Shown here piece by piece: positions 4,207 to 15,795 of a stretch of DNA of 16,322 nucleotides; positions within the stretch are counted from its first letter, which is position 1; the number at the start of each line of letters is the position of its first letter. Origin of the DNA: Gemmatimonadota bacterium. Lineage in GTDB: Bacteria; Gemmatimonadota; Gemmatimonadetes; Gemmatimonadales; Gemmatimonadaceae. Below the pieces are notes generated by a model, which saw only the letters and a list, made by a program, of their open reading frames with translations, did not search any database and had not been told where the DNA came from. The DNA is taken from the NCBI GenBank assembly GCA_003142495.1, contig PLMM01000182.1, forward strand, positions 2,351 to 18,672, written 5' to 3'. The position numbers and the translations under genes are program-made.

Positions 4207-5898
4207 CTACTTGTTGATCGTGATTGTCGCGCCGCTCACGGCGAGGTTGGCGACGGAGCCAGAGGTGGTGGTGACTCCGGTGAGCGTCGATTGGAAGGTG
4301 ACGCTGCCGTTGCCGGTCTTCGGGCCGGTCGAGTCGCCGCCGCAGCTCACAACCGCCACGCTCGTGAGCATGACGAGGAGCATCGCGAGCAGCGTCTTCC
4401 GCTTCCGAGTGGCGGGAATGAGAAAGAGCGGCAAGAAGGCGAGCACGATCACTCCGCCGAGACGTTCCGCCACGGTGACGCTGAACGAGTACGTCACCAG
4501 TAGCGCAGTTGGGGCGGTGATGGCGAGCCCTGGATTCACGGGGAGCGTCACGCTGCCGTTTTTCGCCGCGAAGGTTCCGGTAGCGACGAGACTGTCGCCG
4601 GCGTCGACCTCGCCATTTGCATTCTTGTCGATGTAGAGATGCACAGCGGTTACGTCCGTCTGCTCGTTGCCCGTGCCGGATGCCTGCACGGTGACGCCGG
4701 TGACCGTCTGCTGCGATGCTGGGGTCAGAACGAACTCGATCATCGGAACGTCCGAGGAGCCGGCTGCGACGGTGTGGCTCGAAGGCGTAGAGCCGCCGAG
4801 TGCTACGGTGACTGGTACCGTGGTGGTGATGCAGGCGGCTGTGTTGTTGGACGTGTTCGGATCCGCCGGCCCCGACTCCTCGGGCGCACCCTGGTTGCTC
4901 ACCGTCAAGGTCGTGCAGCTCACCGTCACGCTCGGGAAGCTGTCAGCCGGCGTATCGGGCTCGAGATCCGGTATCGTTTCGAGCCGGACGTTCACTGTGG
5001 TGCTATCGCCGGCGGGAAGCATGGAAAGGTTGCAGCTCAACCCCCCACAAGATCCGTCGGCGATCGACATCGCGCCATTTACGTTCTCATTTTCCGTAGC
5101 GAAGCCCCCAAAGACGTGAACATTGTAAGCGTTGTTCGGTCCGTGATTCACAATGCGAAAAATGGAATTGGAAACGAATCCCTGGGCACTCCCCCCCACG
5201 AGAGTTATTCCGAGATCCGTGTGCAGGCTGATGCCGTTCGGATGCGGATTGGTGGTGTCCGGGAACGAGAAACCGAAACCATCGTAGACCCCCAACGTAT
5301 CCACAGCGGCGCTATCGACTTCATAGCCGCTTAGGGAATTCAGGCCGGGCGTGGCCGTTACAGTAATCCTGTCTCCATACGGCGCGACGCCATGGCATGC
5401 GTGGAAATTCACCCACTGATAAAACGCGGGACCACCCTCCACGGTCGTGCAATTCGCAACAGCGATCGGAGCTCCAATGCTGGGAAAAACAGTGAAATTC
5501 ACCGTACCAACGCCGTCGAAATTGTGATCCCCGAAGGGGATGAGTGCGATGTTCAGCTTGCAATCTCGGAGCGTCACGGGTACGTCGACCTCCGTCCACT
5601 TTCCCGCCGTGATCGTGAAGGTGACGTTGTCCGCCGACGCGCGACAGTTGCCAACGGGCGCATCGATCCGCGCCAGCGTATGTGATCCGGGCGTGAACTC
5701 CGCCGTGAACGTCTCCTCGAGACCGTTGGTCCCCTGAACGAAGGTGTGCGAGACACCCCGATCCTCGAAGGCATTGGTGCCGCCGACAACGTGCGTTCGA
5801 AAGTGCGCCCAACCAACCTGCGCTGACGCGGCGCTCGGCATCGTCGACGAAAGTGTGAACGCCAGTGTTGCGATAAGCGAAGAGCGGACGCGATGCAT
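4207..5898 (-). CDS. Large secreted beta-rich protein with DUF11-like domain and C-terminal membrane/lipobox-like segment
   Basis: A 563-residue exported protein with no assigned function. Residues 1-26 are a Sec signal peptide ending in ASA|QVG, preceded by a good GGAG ribosome site. Residues about 27-210 are beta-rich with several cysteines. Residues about 225-360 look like a DUF11/CARDB-type beta-sandwich (FRIVNHGPNNAYNVHV, then LPAGDSTTVNVRL). Residues about 375-475 form another beta domain with a possible calcium loop DKNANGEVD (424-432). The C-terminus is unusual: a hydrophobic segment (482-496), the basic cluster RKRK (498-501), a second hydrophobic segment (503-517), then SCGG with Cys519 and a 44-residue Gly/Thr/Ser-rich tail. 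The hydrophobic-basic arrangement resembles a sorting signal; the second half alone looks like a lipoprotein signal peptide. It sits between ruvA and the terminator at 4149-4188. A role as a surface-anchored adhesin or structural protein is inference. Confidence 0.85.
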   Translation of the reverse strand: MHRVRSSLIATLAFTLSSTMPSAASAQVGWAHFRTHVVGGTNAFEDRGVSHTFVQGTNGLEETFTAEFTPGSHTLARIDAPVGNCRASADNVTFTITAGKWTEVDVPVTLRDCKLNIALIPFGDHNFDGVGTVNFTVFPSIGAPIAVANCTTVEGGPAFYQWVNFHACHGVAPYGDRITVTATPGLNSLSGYEVDSAAVDTLGVYDGFGFSFPDTTNPHPNGISLHTDLGITLVGGSAQGFVSNSIFRIVNHGPNNAYNVHVFGGFATENENVNGAMSIADGSCGGLSCNLSMLPAGDSTTVNVRLETIPDLEPDTPADSFPSVTVSCTTLTVSNQGAPEESGPADPNTSNNTAACITTTVPVTVALGGSTPSSHTVAAGSSDVPMIEFVLTPASQQTVTGVTVQASGTGNEQTDVTAVHLYIDKNANGEVDAGDSLVATGTFAAKNGSVTLPVNPGLAITAPTALLVTYSFSVTVAERLGGVIVLAFLPLFLIPATRKRKTLLAMLLVMLTSVAVVSCGGDSTGPKTGNGSVTFQSTLTGVTTTSGSVANLAVSGATITINK

Positions 5899-8998: not shown

Positions 8999-9400
8999 CT
9001 ACTCCTTCCGCTCTACTAGCCTTTTCACCACTCCCTCGAGCTCCGCCAAACTCCCCTCGTCGAGATGCTTCCTCGCAGCCGCGATCACGGCGCCGAGCGC
9101 CTCGGCGAGCTCCGATGTGCTCTCGCGGGCGCTCGCGGCTGCTACACGCGTTAGCGGTGTCCTAATCGCACTCGGGAGCGCGAGCGACGCGAACCATCGG
9201 CTCGCGCCCGTCGCGCGGGCCGCGCGCACCGGCGCCGGGAGCGGCGATCCCGCCACGGGCGTCGAGAGCCTTGCGGCCATCAGGCACGCGAGCGCCACCT
9301 CCCGTCCGCGACCCAGCTGCGCCCGCCCCGCATACTCCGCCAGCGCGCGAAAGGGGAAGACGATCGGGCCCACGGCGTACGGAGGAACTGAAGCGAGCAT
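8999..9400 (-). CDS. Hypothetical protein, 133 aa
   Basis: I do not recognise this protein. It is Ala/Arg-rich, mostly helical, with no clear signal peptide or membrane segment. It begins MLASVPPYAVGPIVF and ends in an amphipathic helix (about 94-132: SELAEALGAVIAAARKHL, then LEGVVKRLVERK). Third codon positions are G/C-rich as in neighbouring genes, which supports it as a real gene rather than an antisense shadow. The stop is one base outside the inverted-repeat element. It is transcribed divergently from the porX-like gene, with 136 bases between the starts. No clear ribosome site was found, so the start is uncertain. Confidence 0.6.
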   Translation of the reverse strand: MLASVPPYAVGPIVFPFRALAEYAGRAQLGRGREVALACLMAARLSTPVAGSPLPAPVRAARATGASRWFASLALPSAIRTPLTRVAAASARESTSELAEALGAVIAAARKHLDEGSLAELEGVVKRLVERKE

Positions 9401-9536
9401 GGGTAGCGTTAAAGAGAGTCAACCAGGGAACGAGGGCGCCCGGAGAGCGTAGAGAGAACCGAAGCGCGCCGCAAGCTCGTGCGCACCGGCCGAGTGCGCT
9501 GGCCGCCTCTTTTCCGTCAAACTACATTGTGAGTAC
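9401..9536. promoter_or_regulatory. Divergent intergenic region expected to hold promoters for the porX-like operon and the 133-aa gene
   Basis: This 136-base gap separates two divergent starts and is the only non-coding space upstream of the six-gene plus-strand operon, so its promoter should be here or very close. A weak -10-like TACATT lies at 9523-9528, eight bases before the ATG at 9537, but no convincing -35 accompanies it and no strong Shine-Dalgarno is seen. No palindromic operator stood out. Confidence 0.4.
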
Positions 9537-11099
9537 ATGGCACAGTACCCGAAATCGATTCTCTGGATCGACGATGAGGCCGATCTTCTCGAGTCGCACC
9601 GTATCTTCTTGCGGGAGAAGGGTTTCGAGGTAGAATCCGCGAGCAACGCGGACGACGCCGTCGAGATGCTCCGCCGGCGCACGTACGGGATAGTGCTGCT
9701 CGACGAACAGATGCCCGGCAAGCGTGGTCTCGAGGCCTATCGCGAGATTCGCGAGCTCGACCCTCTTCTTCCGATCATCATGGTCACGAAGAGCGAGGAA
9801 GACGCGACGCTGAAAGAGGCAATCGGCGTTGACGTGCGCGACTATCTCGTCAAGCCGATCAATCCGCGCCAGGTCTGTGCGGTGATCACGCGCGTGCTCG
9901 ATGGTCCGCGCATTCGGCAGCAGGCGATCGCGCGCTCGTTCGTCGAGCGCTTCCGCGCGATCGAGCTCGATCGCCAGGCGCCGCTCGACTGGCGCGGCTG
10001 GGTGTCGCGCTACAGTGAGCTCGTGGAATGGGACGTGAGTCTCGCCGAGGCGCGCGAGCAGAGTCTTTATGATTCGCTACAGTCGCTCTATCCGGACATG
10101 CGCCGCGAGTTTGCGATCTTCATGCGCGATGCGTATCCGGGGTGGCTCAAGAATCTCGAGGGCGATCGTCCGCCACTCTCGATCGACATCGTGAGCGAGT
10201 TCCTCCTCCCGATTCTCGAGCGCAATCGCGCGGCGGTGTTCGTCGTGATCGACTGTCTGCGCCTCGATCAGTGGGCGGTCCTGAGCCCGCTGCTCGCGCC
10301 GTTCTTCGAGATCGAGACGACGCACCACTTCTCGATTCTGCCCACTGCTACTCCGTACTCGCGCAACTCGCTCTTCAGCGGACTCTTTCCGAGCGAGATC
10401 GCCGCGCGATTCCCCGACTGGTGGGGCGAGCGCGAAGACGAATCGCTGAATGCGCACGAGCGCGGGCTGCTCGAGGCGCAGTTCGCGGAGCTCAAGCGCC
10501 CGATCCCCGTGCGCTACGAAAAGATCTCGAGCACCGCGGACAGCGCGGAGCTCGAGCGCCGCGTCTCGAGCGCGATCGCGCGCGAAGGGGTGAGCGCCTT
10601 CGTCTTCAACTTCGTCGACCTCCTCACGCACGGCCGCTCCGAGTCCGCCATCCTCTACGAGGTCGCGAAAGACGAGATCGCGCTGCGCCAGATCACGAAG
10701 CAGTGGTTCGAGCGCTCGGTGCTCTTCACGCTGCTCAAGGATGCCGCGCGCAAGAACATTCCGGTGCTCATCACGAGCGATCACGGCTCGATCCACTGCC
10801 TCACCCCCGCAACCGTCTTCGCGAAGCGCGACGCAACCGCGAATCTGCGCTACAAGTTCGGCGAGGATCTGCGCGCCGAGCGTCCGGAGTACGCGCTCTC
10901 GTTCGGGAATGCGGATGATCTCAAGTTGCCGCGTCGCGGCAGTGGCGCGAATACGCTGCTCGCCGTTGGCGACACCTTCTTTGTCTATCCCACGAAGCTG
11001 CGCGAATATCAGACGCGCTATCGCGGATCGTTTCTGCACGGTGGCGTGACGCCCGAGGAGTGCATCCTGCCGGTGGTGCTTCTCACGCCCAGGCGATAG
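9537..11099 (+). CDS. porX: PorX-like response regulator with PglZ (alkaline-phosphatase-superfamily) output domain
   Basis: A 520-residue protein, close to the length of Bacteroidetes PorX. The receiver domain (about 5-122) has the acidic pair D12/D13, phospho-acceptor D56 in IVLLDEQMPG, T84 and K106 (DYLVKPINP). A helical linker (about 123-215) leads to a PglZ domain (about 230-517) with the expected metal ligands and nucleophile: D239 in VFVVIDCLRLDQW, T272 in LPTATPYSRNSLFSG, D361 in NFVDLLTHGRSES, D415-H416 in ITSDHGSIHC, and H501 in FLHGGVTPEECILPVV. The metal site therefore looks intact. In Bacteroidetes, PorX works with the PorY histidine kinase to control type IX secretion, and its PglZ domain has been reported to act on oligonucleotides. 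No kinase is in this window. It is the first gene of the operon; its TAG shares a base with the next GTG. Its targets here are unknown. Confidence 0.9.
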   Translation: MAQYPKSILWIDDEADLLESHRIFLREKGFEVESASNADDAVEMLRRRTYGIVLLDEQMPGKRGLEAYREIRELDPLLPIIMVTKSEEDATLKEAIGVDVRDYLVKPINPRQVCAVITRVLDGPRIRQQAIARSFVERFRAIELDRQAPLDWRGWVSRYSELVEWDVSLAEAREQSLYDSLQSLYPDMRREFAIFMRDAYPGWLKNLEGDRPPLSIDIVSEFLLPILERNRAAVFVVIDCLRLDQWAVLSPLLAPFFEIETTHHFSILPTATPYSRNSLFSGLFPSEIAARFPDWWGEREDESLNAHERGLLEAQFAELKRPIPVRYEKISSTADSAELERRVSSAIAREGVSAFVFNFVDLLTHGRSESAILYEVAKDEIALRQITKQWFERSVLFTLLKDAARKNIPVLITSDHGSIHCLTPATVFAKRDATANLRYKFGEDLRAERPEYALSFGNADDLKLPRRGSGANTLLAVGDTFFVYPTKLREYQTRYRGSFLHGGVTPEECILPVVLLTPRR

Positions 11100-12949
11100 T
11101 GGATCTCCGCTCGTATCGGAGGATCACCCCGTTCCTGAAGCCGCACGCGTGGCGCATGGCGGGGAACATCTTCTTCAATCTCATCGGCGCCGCGCTCGAC
11201 GGATATTCATTCGCGCTGCTGATCCCGTTCCTCAACGCGCTCTTCGGGCTCCCAGCGCTGCCGATCAAGAGCGGCTGGGTCACCGCGTTCCTGCAGTGGA
11301 CGATCGGTTGGCTGCTCGATCCCGCGAATCCGATGGGATCGCTGCGCAACGTCATCCTGATCCTGCTCGGCACCGTTGCGGTGAAGAACATGTGCGTGTG
11401 GGCCGCCGGCACGCTCGGAGCACAGCTGCAGGAGTACATCACACGCGATCTGCGCGATGCCGTATATCGCCATCTGCAGTCGCTGCCGATCGGCTGGTTC
11501 ACGCGCACGAAGGTCGGACAGATCATCTCGCGCGTGCTCTCCGACACCGAGCAGACGAAGACGCTCGTGACGCAGCTCGTCACGCAGGCGATCTCCGCGG
11601 CCGCGATGGTGACGATCTACGTCGCGTATCTCTTCGGCATCTCGTGGCGCCTCACGCTGCTCGCGCTCGTCGTCGCGCCCGCGCTGACGTTCGCGCTGCA
11701 GCCGCTTCTTCGGAAGCTGCGCCGCGGATATAGGAGGTTGCGCAACGATCACGGCGAGATGATGAGCGTGCTGCAGGAGAGCGTGAGCGGCATTCGCCTC
11801 GTGAAGTCGTTCGCCGCCGAGGGCTACGAGGAGTCGCGCTTCATCGGCGCGAGCCATACGTATTCGCGCGGCCTCGTGAAGATGGCGAAGTTCGCGTTGA
11901 TTGGTCAGCCGATCACCGAGACGTTGGGCACGCTGATCGTCGTGCTGTTGCTGTGGACGGGGGCGAAGTGGGTGCTCGTCGACCACACGCTGCAGGCGTC
12001 GCAGTTCCTCGTCTTTCTCACGTTCGTGATGCGCATGCTGCAGCCGCTCAAGCAGCTCTCGCAGATTCCGGCGATCGCGCAGAACTCGTTCGCCAGCGCG
12101 GAGCGGCTCTTCGAGGTGCTCGACATGCCGACGGAGACGTCGCTCGACAAAGGAACGAAGGTCGCGAAGAGCTTCGACGATTCGCTCGAGTTCGATGACG
12201 TCTCGTTCGCGTACGACGCCGGCACCGACGTGCTCGCGGACATCTCGTTTACGGCGCGGAAGGGCGATGTGATCGCGCTGGTGGGCGCGAGCGGGGCGGG
12301 GAAGAGCACGCTCGCGGATCTGATCCCTCGCTTCTACGAGCCAACGTCCGGACGCATTTTCCTCGACGGTGTCGACACGCGCGACATCGTGCTGCCGTCG
12401 CTGCGCTCGCTCACGGGGATCGTGAGCCAGGAGACGGTGCTCTTCAACGACACCGTGCGCGCGAACATTGCGTACGGCCGCGGCGCGAAGTACTCCGACG
12501 CACAGATCGAGGCTGCCGCGCGCGCCGCGAACGCGCACGGCTTCATCGCCGAGCTCCCTCAGGGCTACGGCACCGTGCTCGGCGAACGCGGCGCGCGCCT
12601 CAGCGGCGGCCAACGGCAGCGCATCGCGATCGCGCGCGCGCTGTTGGTTGACCCGCCGATTTTGATTCTCGACGAGGCGACCTCTGCGCTCGACACCGAG
12701 TCCGAGCGCCTCGTGCAGGAGGCGATCGACCGCCTGCTCGCGGGACGCACGGTGATCGTGATCGCGCACCGCCTCTCGACGATCGTGAACGCGACGGAGA
12801 TTCTCGTGCTGGACCGCGGGCGCATCATCGAGCGCGGCACGCACGAAGCGCTGCTCGAGCACCGCGGCGCGTACTACCGGCTGCACACTCTCCAGTTCGG
12901 AGACAGGGATTCGCAACCGGTCGAAGAACATGCGCATCCTGTTTTATAG
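11099..12949 (+). CDS. msbA: MsbA-type ABC transporter (fused membrane and ATPase domains)
   Basis: A 616-residue ABC half-transporter of the lipid A flippase/multidrug type, expected to act as an inner-membrane homodimer. The membrane domain (about 15-330) has six likely helices, including 20-45, 84-104, 165-205, 275-290 and 300-315, and the coupling-region motif GIRLVKSFAAE (231-241). The ATPase domain has Walker A GASGAGKST (396-404), Q-loop Q444 in IVSQETVLFND, signature LSGGQRQR (501-508), Walker B ILILDEAT (521-528) and the H-loop histidine H557 in AHRLST. The start is taken as GTG 11099, which overlaps the last base of the porX stop; an ATG at 11060 would lie inside porX. Its location with a glycosyltransferase and an LpxL-type acyltransferase supports lipid A or glycolipid export. 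The symbol rests on family and context; the substrate is not proven. Confidence 0.85.
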   Translation: MDLRSYRRITPFLKPHAWRMAGNIFFNLIGAALDGYSFALLIPFLNALFGLPALPIKSGWVTAFLQWTIGWLLDPANPMGSLRNVILILLGTVAVKNMCVWAAGTLGAQLQEYITRDLRDAVYRHLQSLPIGWFTRTKVGQIISRVLSDTEQTKTLVTQLVTQAISAAAMVTIYVAYLFGISWRLTLLALVVAPALTFALQPLLRKLRRGYRRLRNDHGEMMSVLQESVSGIRLVKSFAAEGYEESRFIGASHTYSRGLVKMAKFALIGQPITETLGTLIVVLLLWTGAKWVLVDHTLQASQFLVFLTFVMRMLQPLKQLSQIPAIAQNSFASAERLFEVLDMPTETSLDKGTKVAKSFDDSLEFDDVSFAYDAGTDVLADISFTARKGDVIALVGASGAGKSTLADLIPRFYEPTSGRIFLDGVDTRDIVLPSLRSLTGIVSQETVLFNDTVRANIAYGRGAKYSDAQIEAAARAANAHGFIAELPQGYGTVLGERGARLSGGQRQRIAIARALLVDPPILILDEATSALDTESERLVQEAIDRLLAGRTVIVIAHRLSTIVNATEILVLDRGRIIERGTHEALLEHRGAYYRLHTLQFGDRDSQPVEEHAHPVL

Positions 12950-14021
12950 CCAGAGTCCGGAATGGAACGGCGGTGCGCGCACACTGGCCGCTGCGGCGCG
13001 TGGGATGAGCGAGCGCGGGCACAACGTGACGGTCGTGTGCCCGCCCGAGAGCGCGCTCGAGCAGCACCTGGAGTTCGGCGCGTACGAGGTCGTCTCGCTC
13101 TCGACGCTCCTGCCGTGGCCCGTCGCCGCGATGCGACTGCGCCGACTGCTCCACGATCGATTCATCCAGGTCGTGATCGTGAACGGCGACCGGGAGCAGC
13201 TCATTGCCGCGCTCGCGACGAGGCTCGCCGAGCGGGCGGCGGTGCTGCGGCGCGTGGCGATTGGAGAGAAGATCCGTCTCACAGCGAGCGCGCGCCTGGC
13301 ATTCAAGCTCGCGCCAACGGGATTGCTGTTCGGCTCAGAAGAGGACATGCGCAACGCGCCCTCCGCATCGCTCACGCGCTTTCCTCCCGCCATCGTCGCG
13401 CTCGGCGTCAACGCGCAGTCGTACGACGCCATCCGCCCCGCGTCGCGCGCAAGCATCGGCGCACCGGGCGGCACGCGGCTCCTTGTGTGCGTGTACGACC
13501 GCACCGGTCGCGCGCGCGCGGCGACGGTGCTGCGCGTGATCGCGCTGCTCGCGCCGCGACATCCCGAGCTGCGACTCGCACTGGTCGGCGCCGGTTCCGA
13601 CGACGAAGATCTGCGCATGCACGCTGCTGCCCTTCGCATTACGGGCGCCGTCAGCTTCCTCGGCGAGCGCGACGACTATCTCTCGGTGCTCAGCGTGGCC
13701 GATCTGGGCTGGGTCGTCGCCGATGGCGACAACGCGGTGTTCGCGCTCCTCGATCTTTTGGCATCGCGTGTGCCGGTGTTAGCGGAGAGGGGAACGGTGG
13801 CCGAGCAGTACGTGCCGGACGGGATCGCGGGGATCCTGTTGCCTCGAGGTGAAGCGCCCGATATCGCGGCGGCGGTCGCGCTCCTGCTCGGCCACGACGA
13901 TCGCCGTGCGGCGATGGGCGGCGCGGGGCGCGCGCGCGTGTCGCGGGACTATTCGGAGGCGAAGATGGTGGACGCGTTCGAGACGGCGGCCACCGTCGCC
14001 AGCGACCGCGCGCGCTGGTGA
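12930..14021 (+). CDS. GT-B fold glycosyltransferase, family 4-like
   Basis: A 363-residue predicted glycosyltransferase that would transfer a sugar from a nucleotide donor, probably onto a lipid or LPS acceptor at the inner face of the membrane. The N-terminal Rossmann half starts MRILFYSQSPEWNGGARTL with the family glycine loop (14-15) and RGHNVTVVCPPES. The C-terminal half has LRLALVGAGSDDEDL (214-228), VSFLGERDDYLSVLSVADLG (241-260) and LLDLLASRVPVLAERGTVAEQ. The usual GT4 E-x7-E motif appears as D267-x7-D275. The start overlaps the end of the transporter gene by 20 bases, and the stop forms GTGA with the next gene. The sugar and acceptor are unknown. Confidence 0.82.
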   Translation: MRILFYSQSPEWNGGARTLAAAARGMSERGHNVTVVCPPESALEQHLEFGAYEVVSLSTLLPWPVAAMRLRRLLHDRFIQVVIVNGDREQLIAALATRLAERAAVLRRVAIGEKIRLTASARLAFKLAPTGLLFGSEEDMRNAPSASLTRFPPAIVALGVNAQSYDAIRPASRASIGAPGGTRLLVCVYDRTGRARAATVLRVIALLAPRHPELRLALVGAGSDDEDLRMHAAALRITGAVSFLGERDDYLSVLSVADLGWVVADGDNAVFALLDLLASRVPVLAERGTVAEQYVPDGIAGILLPRGEAPDIAAAVALLLGHDDRRAAMGGAGRARVSRDYSEAKMVDAFETAATVASDRARW

Positions 14022-14950
14022 GCGAGCGACGCGGCCCGACGGTCGCGCATCGCGCGCAGTACGCGGCGTTGCGCGCGTTCGCGTGGCTGCTCGGGCTGAT
14101 GTCGTGGCGCGTGGCGACGAATCTCGCGGGGAGCATCGGGACGCTGTTCTATTCGCCGTTGGGAATCAGGCGGCGCGTGGCGGAGAAGCAGATCGCGGCG
14201 GCATTTCCGGAGCTCTCCTCGCGAGAGGTCGAGCGGGTGGCGAGAGAGAGCTATCGGCACCTGGCGCGTGTGGCGGCGGAGACCCTGCTGTTCTCGCGAC
14301 TCGATGGCGCCGGGATTCTGTCGCACATGTCGGGCATCGATGGGCTCGAGCACTTCGAGCGGCAGCGCGCGGAGGGAAAGGGCGCCATCGTGCTCACTGG
14401 CCATGTCGGCAACTGGGAGATTGGTGGGGCGGCGACTGCGGCGAGTGGAATTCCGATCGACGTCGTCGTCCGCCTCATGGGAAATCCGCTGTTCGATGAG
14501 TATCTCACGAGCGCGCGGCACAACCTCGGCATGACCGTCGTCCGCGATCGGGACGCCGTGCGCCACACCGCGCGCGCGCTGCGCGAGGGACATGTGGTCG
14601 CGTTTCTCATCGATCAGTCCGGACTCCACATCGCGTCGAGCTTCGTGAACTTTTTCGGGCGGCCGGCGAAGACACCGCGCGGGCCGGCAGTACTCGCGAT
14701 TCGACTTGGTGCGCCGGTGTTCTTCGGTGTGAGCCTCCGTCAGCCCGACGGTCGGTACCATCTCCACATTCGCGAGCTCGTCACGGAGCGCACCGGCGAC
14801 ACCGATCGCGATGTCGAAGCGATCCTGAACGCGTACTCGCGAACGCTCGAGTACTTCGTGCGCCAGGCGCCCGAGCAGTATTTCTGGCAGCATCGCCGCT
14901 GGAAGCGCCAGCCTGCGAGCACGCCACCCGAGCTCCGCGATCCGGTATGA
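14018..14950 (+). CDS. LpxL/HtrB-family lysophospholipid (lipid A) acyltransferase
   Basis: A 310-residue member of the LPLAT family of lipid A late acyltransferases, which add secondary acyl chains at the inner membrane. The catalytic H-x4-E motif is present as HVGNWE (129-134) in VLTGHVGNWEIGG. Other family blocks are GIRRRVAEKQIAAAFPE (49-65), VAFLIDQSG (194-202), FFGRPAKTPRGPA (212-224) and the C-terminal PEQYFWQHRRWKRQP (285-299). Residues about 17-47 are the likely membrane anchor. It starts with GTG, overlapping the glycosyltransferase stop by four bases, and overlaps the permease by four bases (ATGA). An acyltransferase for phosphatidylinositol mannoside or ornithine lipid has the same fold, so lipid A as acceptor is the most likely reading, not certain. 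Confidence 0.9.
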   Translation: MSERRGPTVAHRAQYAALRAFAWLLGLMSWRVATNLAGSIGTLFYSPLGIRRRVAEKQIAAAFPELSSREVERVARESYRHLARVAAETLLFSRLDGAGILSHMSGIDGLEHFERQRAEGKGAIVLTGHVGNWEIGGAATAASGIPIDVVVRLMGNPLFDEYLTSARHNLGMTVVRDRDAVRHTARALREGHVVAFLIDQSGLHIASSFVNFFGRPAKTPRGPAVLAIRLGAPVFFGVSLRQPDGRYHLHIRELVTERTGDTDRDVEAILNAYSRTLEYFVRQAPEQYFWQHRRWKRQPASTPPELRDPV

Positions 14951-15795
14951 ATGCGTTCCTGTGGCGGAAGCTACGCGCTGACCGGCGCGCGATGATCGGA
15001 CTCGGCGCGATCGCACTGATGGTGCTGCTCGCGATTCTCGCTCCCCTTGTCTCGCGATGGGACCCAACGGGCATCGCCCTCGCGAACCAGCTGCAGCCGC
15101 CGTCATCGGCGCACTGGCTAGGCACCGACCTCCAGGGCCGCGATGTGTGGGCGCGTCTCGTTTATGGCGCGCGCATCTCGCTCTCCGTCGGCTTCCTCTC
15201 GCAGGGAATCTCGCTCGCGATCGGGCTCACGCTCGGGCTGATGGCGGGCTTCTACGGCAAATGGATCGATGAAGGCGTGATGCGGCTCGCAGATGTCACG
15301 CTCGCCTTTCCCTCGCTCCTGCTCCTGATCGCGCTCGCCGCCGCCTTCGAGCCCTCGCTCACGACCGTGCTCGTCACGATCGGCGTCGTCGGCTGGGCCG
15401 GGATGGCGCGCATCGTTCGCGGGCAGGTGCTCGTCGTCCGACAGCTCGAGTACGTGCAGGCCGCGCGCGCACTCGGCGAGCGCGACTACCGCATCATCAC
15501 GCGACATTTGCTGCCGAACGTCATCGCGCCCGTCGTCATCGCCGCGACACTCGGCGTGGCCGGCGCGATCATGGCCGAGGCGGCGCTATCCTTTCTGGGA
15601 CTCGGCGTGCAGCCGCCGACGCCGAGTTGGGGCTCGATGATCGCGGATGGCCGCGACCTCGAGCAGCTGCGACACGCGCCGTGGACATCGCTCAGCCCCG
15701 GTCTCGCGATCGGCGCCGCGGTGCTCGGCTTCAACCTGCTCGGCGACGCGCTCAGAGATGCGCTCGACCCGCGCGCACTCGAGGGACGCACATGA
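14947..15795 (+). CDS. ABC transporter permease, OppC/DppC family
   Basis: A 282-residue inner-membrane permease of the peptide/nickel (Dpp/Opp) uptake family. It has the OppC N-terminal segment (first helix about 15-34), the block HWLGTDLQGRDVWARLVYGAR (56-76), and further membrane segments near 80-101, 117-134, 138-158, 192-218 and 251-270. The cytoplasmic EAA loop that contacts the ATPase is at about 169-190 (YVQAARALGERD, then HLLPN). Its partners (DppB-type permease, binding protein and DppD/F ATPases) are not in the window. It overlaps both neighbours by four bases (ATGA each time), so it is translated with them despite being of the importer type. Confidence 0.92.
   Translation: MNAFLWRKLRADRRAMIGLGAIALMVLLAILAPLVSRWDPTGIALANQLQPPSSAHWLGTDLQGRDVWARLVYGARISLSVGFLSQGISLAIGLTLGLMAGFYGKWIDEGVMRLADVTLAFPSLLLLIALAAAFEPSLTTVLVTIGVVGWAGMARIVRGQVLVVRQLEYVQAARALGERDYRIITRHLLPNVIAPVVIAATLGVAGAIMAEAALSFLGLGVQPPTPSWGSMIADGRDLEQLRHAPWTSLSPGLAIGAAVLGFNLLGDALRDALDPRALEGRT

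Follow-up and report, generated by a model that had tools for sequence, protein, structure and literature searches.

We propose, with moderate confidence and from sequence comparisons, that a bacterium of the Gemmatimonadaceae encodes a real PorX that is co-expressed with lipid A genes and has been kept without type IX secretion. The gene, porX, lies in a stretch of 16,322 nucleotides (nt) of contig PLMM01000182.1, which we call the window. It is part of a 3.2 Mb genome in 431 contigs (GCA_003142495.1; G000 below) that is rated 84.5% complete. PorX has been studied in Bacteroidetes. In the window it is followed by genes for an MsbA-type exporter, a glycosyltransferase (GT) and an LpxL-type acyltransferase, and in five genomes of its genus we detected no SprA, the channel protein of the type IX secretion system (T9SS).

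PorX and its active sites

The porX gene (9537..11099, + strand) encodes a protein of 520 amino acids (aa) with a receiver domain (residues 8-117), a helical linker and a PglZ phosphodiesterase domain. Against NF052313 (T9SS_RR_PorX; cut-off 300) the product reaches 523.9 bits, aligning with model positions 2-513 of 513, and it exceeds the cut-offs for PF00072 and PF08665 in the Pfam scan. The solved PorX chain 7pv7 aligns with it over nearly the full length (E 2.3e-103, query residues 5-519 of 520), and the PorX structure 8ted is also matched. The acid-pocket and switch residues of the receiver (D13, E14, D56, T84 and K106) are all kept. The PglZ active-site set (D239, T272, D361, H365, D415, H416 and H501) is complete; which of these residues bind metal is in part our assumption. 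The first-pass annotation, made from the letters of this DNA, had described a PorX-like regulator with an intact receiver (D56) and an intact PglZ site (the set above without H365, which is conserved alongside), and the family model, the structures and the residues all agree with that description.

Two codons are of particular interest. That of the phospho-acceptor D56 lies at 9702..9704 (+), and the residue is D in 81 of 82 aligned Gemmatimonadota rows (the other has a gap in a fragment) and in 60/60 Bacteroidota rows. The codon of T272 (10350..10352, +) corresponds in the structural alignments to the threonine that alanine replaces in 7pvk, and the residue is T in every row of the alignment (82/82 Gemmatimonadota, 60/60 Bacteroidota). 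The corresponding PorX-Pg T272A is an inactive mutant (PMC10951265). Judged by family models and alignments, porX is a real, full-length member of the PorX family in which both the receiver and the PglZ active sites are intact.

The PorX proteins of Porphyromonas gingivalis and Flavobacterium johnsoniae (7pv7/7pva/7pvk and the 8ted series) have the same architecture, length, and receiver and PglZ residues as the protein described here. PorX has been characterized as a zinc-dependent oligonucleotide phosphodiesterase that carries a receiver and binds GldL (PMC10951265, PMC12839542). Dimerisation of PorX, and the equivalents in F. johnsoniae PorX of the receiver-pocket and switch residues listed above, are also described (PMC10951265). 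The PglZ proteins of bacteriophage exclusion (BREX) systems have the same phosphatase domain but no receiver domain. The match between BREX-3 PglZ and PorX reaches 81.5 bits, far below the cut-off of 250, and there is no BREX gene among the window genes scanned.

A predicted operon with lipid A genes

The TAG stop codon of porX and the GTG start codon of the next gene overlap at base 11099 (TAGTG). This second gene (11099..12949, +) encodes an MsbA-type exporter of lipid A or glycolipid with membrane and ATPase domains (PF00664, PF00005), and it is the sole match at E<=1e-100 within its own genome. TIGR02203 is the best of 188 families for the product. The score is 530.1 bits, under the equivalog cut-off of 602; by this measure the label “MsbA-type” is right, and “MsbA” is not certified, since the cut-off is not reached. 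The third gene, which overlaps the second by 20 bases, encodes a GT4-family GT (12930..14021, +; PF00534, PF13692 and PF13439 over cut-off). It overlaps by 4 bases the gene for an LpxL-type lipid A acyltransferase (14018..14950, +; PF03279, 167.7 bits, cut-off 22.3), whose product is under the cut-off of every NCBIfam equivalog. The coordinates of these open reading frames, their order and the one-base overlap between porX and msbA are exactly as first annotated. A gene for an OppC-type permease of a peptide ATP-binding cassette transporter (14947..15795, +) overlaps lpxL by 4 bases and, by that overlap, is probably part of the same operon, although the first-pass annotation did not include it. 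In many named relatives, introduced below, lpxL is likewise followed by oppC. LpxC was matched in G000 and in all 33 genomes searched, with a partial match in one.

A hexamer, TACATT (9523..9528, +), lies 14 nt 5ʹ of the porX ATG and fits TANNTT, a promoter-like element of the -10/-7 type. We compared 53 porX loci: the window, 42 loci from named relatives and 10 from members of the family or order that lack SprA; 4 were unusable. TANNTT is found 8-20 nt 5ʹ of the porX start in 45 of the 49 usable upstream regions (42/46 when identical sequences are counted once), and at a control offset of 30-42 nt in none of the 49. At the other starts of the same loci the element is nearly absent (msbA 0/43, GT 0/31, lpxL 1/29), and a wider set that includes deeper families gives a similar picture (porX 51/75, msbA 2/64, GT 0/33, lpxL 2/37). 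No Shine-Dalgarno-like run precedes porX in any of the 49 regions. An element this near the start, together with the lack of such a run, suggests that porX is probably a leaderless, or nearly leaderless, first gene, and that TANNTT may act here as a promoter. The yebC genes of porX loci carry TANNTT 30-42 nt 5ʹ of their start in 22 of 39 cases, and this type of element hence also occurs with a leader.

Together, the overlapping genes, their conserved order and the presence of TANNTT at porX and its near-absence at msbA, GT and lpxL point to a single porX-msbA-GT-lpxL operon with a putative promoter at porX.

Conservation of the gene order

The first-pass annotation had named a differing gene order in close relatives as grounds for refuting it; the check was made, and the order proved to be conserved. 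Our 42 named loci, all with PorX, come from Gemmatimonadaceae and other Gemmatimonadetes; they were found with patterns taken from the PorX of the window and are hence biased to close relatives. L034 and L100 are one and the same stretch of G033, a genome of the window's genus. By tblastn, on which all our adjacency counts rest, msbA directly follows porX in all 40 loci that could be evaluated, with a median gap of 2, and lpxL follows at no more than 6.5 kb in 31 of 32. At greater distance, in families f4-f9 of the same class, msbA is next to porX in 11/13 loci and lpxL is within 6.5 kb in 8/11. At L091, one of the two exceptions, the contig extends only ~1 kb downstream. The contig of L072 (PKUY01000003.1, titled Acidobacteria) has pieces of porX and msbA that are 99% and 93% identical to those of the window, and is probably wrongly binned.

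On the other side of porX, divergent from it and beyond its promoter region, is a gene for a small conserved protein of 133 aa (8999..9400, - strand) that matches no NCBIfam or Pfam family. This gene or a DnaB-like gene is found no more than 1.5 kb upstream of porX in 34 of the 35 named relatives that could be evaluated, and in none of the 13 f4-f9 loci. This difference bears on a possible, though doubtful, alternative to our proposal: that porX controls an unrelated target, for instance surface proteins or an extracytoplasmic function (ECF) sigma factor, and that it has a promoter in common with msbA-lpxL only through an ancient gene order that suits expression. An indifferent neighbourhood of this kind does not sit well with an upstream order that is gone at the family level while porX and msbA stay together, nor with the genes found next to porX in another class.

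In that class (f10), msbA adjoins porX in 0 of 6 loci. Heptosyltransferase-type genes, recognized with a panel of 22 Escherichia coli K-12 lipopolysaccharide (LPS) proteins, are beside porX in 6/6 loci and on both sides in 5/6; both flanking genes at one of these loci (L082) were confirmed as PF01075. In families f7 and f2, a heptosyltransferase-type gene is directly 5ʹ of porX at L251-L253, L256, L257, L261 and L262. Counted within 6 kb of porX with the same panel, at least one LPS gene is present at 40/42 named loci and at 17/19 deep Gemmatimonadota loci. The latter figure compares with 1/20 control stretches (Fisher p 6e-8), which we chose ourselves, mostly ~100 kb from porX on large contigs, and which are hence not random. 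Chance adjacency is ruled out by these controls and by the class-level count for msbA. Contamination or misassembly is ruled out because G033 and the 42 named loci carry the same block. Gene order, the promoter-like element and the LPS neighbours in the other class thus strongly support the physical tie between porX and envelope-lipid genes that the first-pass annotation had drawn.

Type IX secretion in the phylum and in the genus

PorX is over cut-off in 176 of 200 Gemmatimonadota genomes. A profile built from 11 of the phylum's own SprA proteins found SprA in 144 of the 200, as proteins of ~2,000 aa. Of the 176 genomes with PorX, 142 have SprA; of the 24 that lack PorX, 2 do (G051 and G117; Fisher p 3.5e-12, uncorrected for kinship). 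None of five genomes of the window's genus has a SprA match; one of these is rated 100% complete and two just 68%. G000 gave no match for SprA, PorV, GldL, GldM or the C-terminal sorting domain (CTD; Por_Secre_tail), with PorU not searched. G033, the genome rated 100% complete, gave none for SprA, PorV, GldL or GldM and one weak CTD match (E 8.1e-4), PorU again not being searched. A positive control, G200, matched all five T9SS profiles. The type IX link suggested at first annotation therefore stands across the phylum, where SprA and PorX co-occur, and is not borne out in this genus or in the window's own genome.

Could PorX nonetheless be an ordinary type IX regulator here, in a genus whose type IX system is divergent or unassembled? 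The proportion of SprA-bearing genomes that have PorX (142/144) is what this explanation would predict, a T9SS has been reported as possibly present in Gemmatimonadetes (PMC11285876), and the incompleteness of G000 limits what its absences mean. However, the SprA profile was the phylum's own and matched nothing in the five genomes, the complete one included, and no PorV, GldL or GldM was found in G033 or in G000, nor a CTD apart from the weak match. We consider this explanation unlikely.

GldL, or PorL, the partner of PorX in Bacteroidetes, has no match in any of the 46 Gemmatimonadota genomes searched, 28 of which have SprA over cut-off, although a divergent GldL could escape such a search; GldM has none in 32 genomes. 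An SprA-like channel without GldL or GldM matches might be a type IX-like system without the known motor, or have a very divergent motor. Three genomes of class f10 (G001, G003 and G007) have 25-33 Por_Secre_tail matches each and many PorV-family proteins, and in this the class resembles a genuine type IX lineage beyond Bacteroidota. The T9SS has been described as occurring in Bacteroidetes alone (PMC4793230).

Selection on porX and its loss in relatives

The ratio of nonsynonymous to synonymous substitution rates (dN/dS) of porX is 0.057 between the window and G033 (L034) and 0.051 between the window and L042. These values are lower than those of msbA (0.130 and 0.122) and lpxL (0.174 and 0.233) for the same two pairs, and near those of oppC (0.043) and GT (0.064) in the window/L034 pair. 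In the genus of the window, porX is under strong purifying selection. Twelve active-site positions were checked in 24 SprA-lacking genomes and are kept in all 24, with S in place of T84 in one. Among the 34 genomes with PorX and without SprA, msbA follows porX in 16 of 20 further genomes.

These data bear on the suggestion that porX is a relic of a type IX system since lost and is itself disappearing, as has happened in some relatives. At eight Gemmatimonadaceae loci (L105-L112), all from genomes without SprA, porX is indeed gone from the same place. However, a relic would be expected to show relaxed selection, which is not seen, and its catalytic residues would not be expected to be intact in distant SprA-lacking families as well. 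Hence, we think it very unlikely that porX is a relic.

The eight loci without porX are informative in their own right. Each has the gene for the 133-aa protein and an intact msbA-lpxL block, with porX missing between them. In six (L105, L106 and L108-L111), TANNTT is followed by a leaderless frame of 11-15 codons that ends in TGATG on the msbA start; the peptides differ and the frame itself is kept. In the remaining two, msbA itself begins behind TANNTT. That the element is kept before msbA in the absence of porX supports a promoter at porX that drives msbA.

Several observations weigh against the reading that PorX serves lipid A synthesis. Since msbA and lpxL are in place at the eight loci just described, the PorX protein is dispensable for both. 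Genus g71 (G125, G120 and G176; L095, L254 and L255) has an intact porX, no msbA adjacent to it and no SprA, and LpxC is matched only in part in G125; porX is likewise without msbA beside it at L256 and L258. PorX has no match to a DNA-binding family in the NCBIfam and Pfam scans. Across the phylum, loss of PorX tracks loss of SprA, a pattern that argues for a role in type IX secretion wherever SprA is present. In Bacteroidota, LPS genes are near porX at 19 of 60 loci, drawn from 92 genomes with PorX, compared with 2 of 20 controls, a difference that is not significant (p 0.08). Moreover, 18 of these 19 contain lpxD, in most cases alongside lpxC and lpxA, in what seems to be one arrangement at high-scoring loci, and the 18 may represent one event. 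A general enrichment of LPS genes near porX in Bacteroidota is thus unsupported. Finally, that PorX controls lipid A is something we infer from gene context. Of the lipid link first proposed for this locus, the physical tie is sound; the functional tie is weakened by the persistence of msbA-lpxL without porX and by g71.

Some of the same observations favour the view that porX and its neighbours are functionally unrelated. The msbA-lpxL genes work without porX at 8/8 of the PorX-less Gemmatimonadaceae loci examined, the short frame at 6/8 looks as if a role of porX in translational coupling were all that mattered, and g71 keeps porX away from msbA. We nevertheless still favour a PorX that is expressed together with the lipid A genes and has been kept without type IX secretion.

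Elsewhere in the window, positions 4207-5898 (- strand) encode a protein of 563 aa that begins with a signal-like stretch and matches no Pfam family.

Discussion

How might PorX act in a genus without detected SprA? We propose that porX is the first gene of porX-msbA-GT-lpxL(-oppC) and would be transcribed from a promoter immediately 5ʹ of it. D56 would be phosphorylated by a histidine kinase whose gene lies elsewhere, and PorX would then dimerise. By analogy with the Porphyromonas and Flavobacterium proteins, the zinc-dependent PglZ domain would hydrolyse an oligonucleotide messenger, and phospho-PorX may alter gene expression or the activity of a partner. Because porX would be expressed along with the genes for the lipid A flippase and the acyltransferase, the level and output of PorX would be tied to the supply of outer-membrane lipid. 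In relatives that have SprA, PorX probably matches type IX export to this lipid supply; in the genus of the window, the envelope-lipid part of the role alone would remain. It is also conceivable, if rather improbable, that PorX first arose as an LPS-linked messenger phosphodiesterase, that type IX secretion recruited it later, and that Gemmatimonadota genera without SprA keep its original lipid A role.

The closest link known so far from PorX to LPS is the PorXY-SigP/PorA pathway of P. gingivalis, in which PorXY is connected with a signal at the cell surface and one form of PorA is bound to A-LPS (PMC7712824). That pathway lies within type IX secretion and acts via a surface protein, whereas here the tie is an operon with lipid A export genes in a genus where no SprA was detected. 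A lipid A phosphatase has also been tied to a working T9SS (PMC12704123). Clusters of lipid A flippase and acyltransferase genes are found likewise in E. coli K-12 (msbA-lpxK and lpxD-fabZ-lpxA-lpxB operons), but those stretches have no response regulator, unlike the operon predicted here. The position of porX also differs from that in Bacteroidota: here it heads msbA-GT-lpxL, whereas at 20 Bacteroidota loci the next gene is commonly tsaE-like (a 12-member cluster, named by sight). The first-pass annotation had surmised that PorX is little studied in this lineage, and our full-text search of partly available literature found no account of porX gene order or of PorX in Gemmatimonadota, which is not proof of absence.

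What does this locus mean for the biology of PorX? A lineage that has an intact PorX and lipid A genes, and no detectable SprA channel or GldLM motor, would separate two roles of PorX. It touches on why PorX bears a messenger-degrading domain and on which state of the cell surface PorX reads, questions that apply to P. gingivalis also. Furthermore, the occurrence of SprA-like proteins across Gemmatimonadota, with no match to GldL or GldM, bears on how widely type IX, or type IX-like, secretion occurs outside Bacteroidetes.

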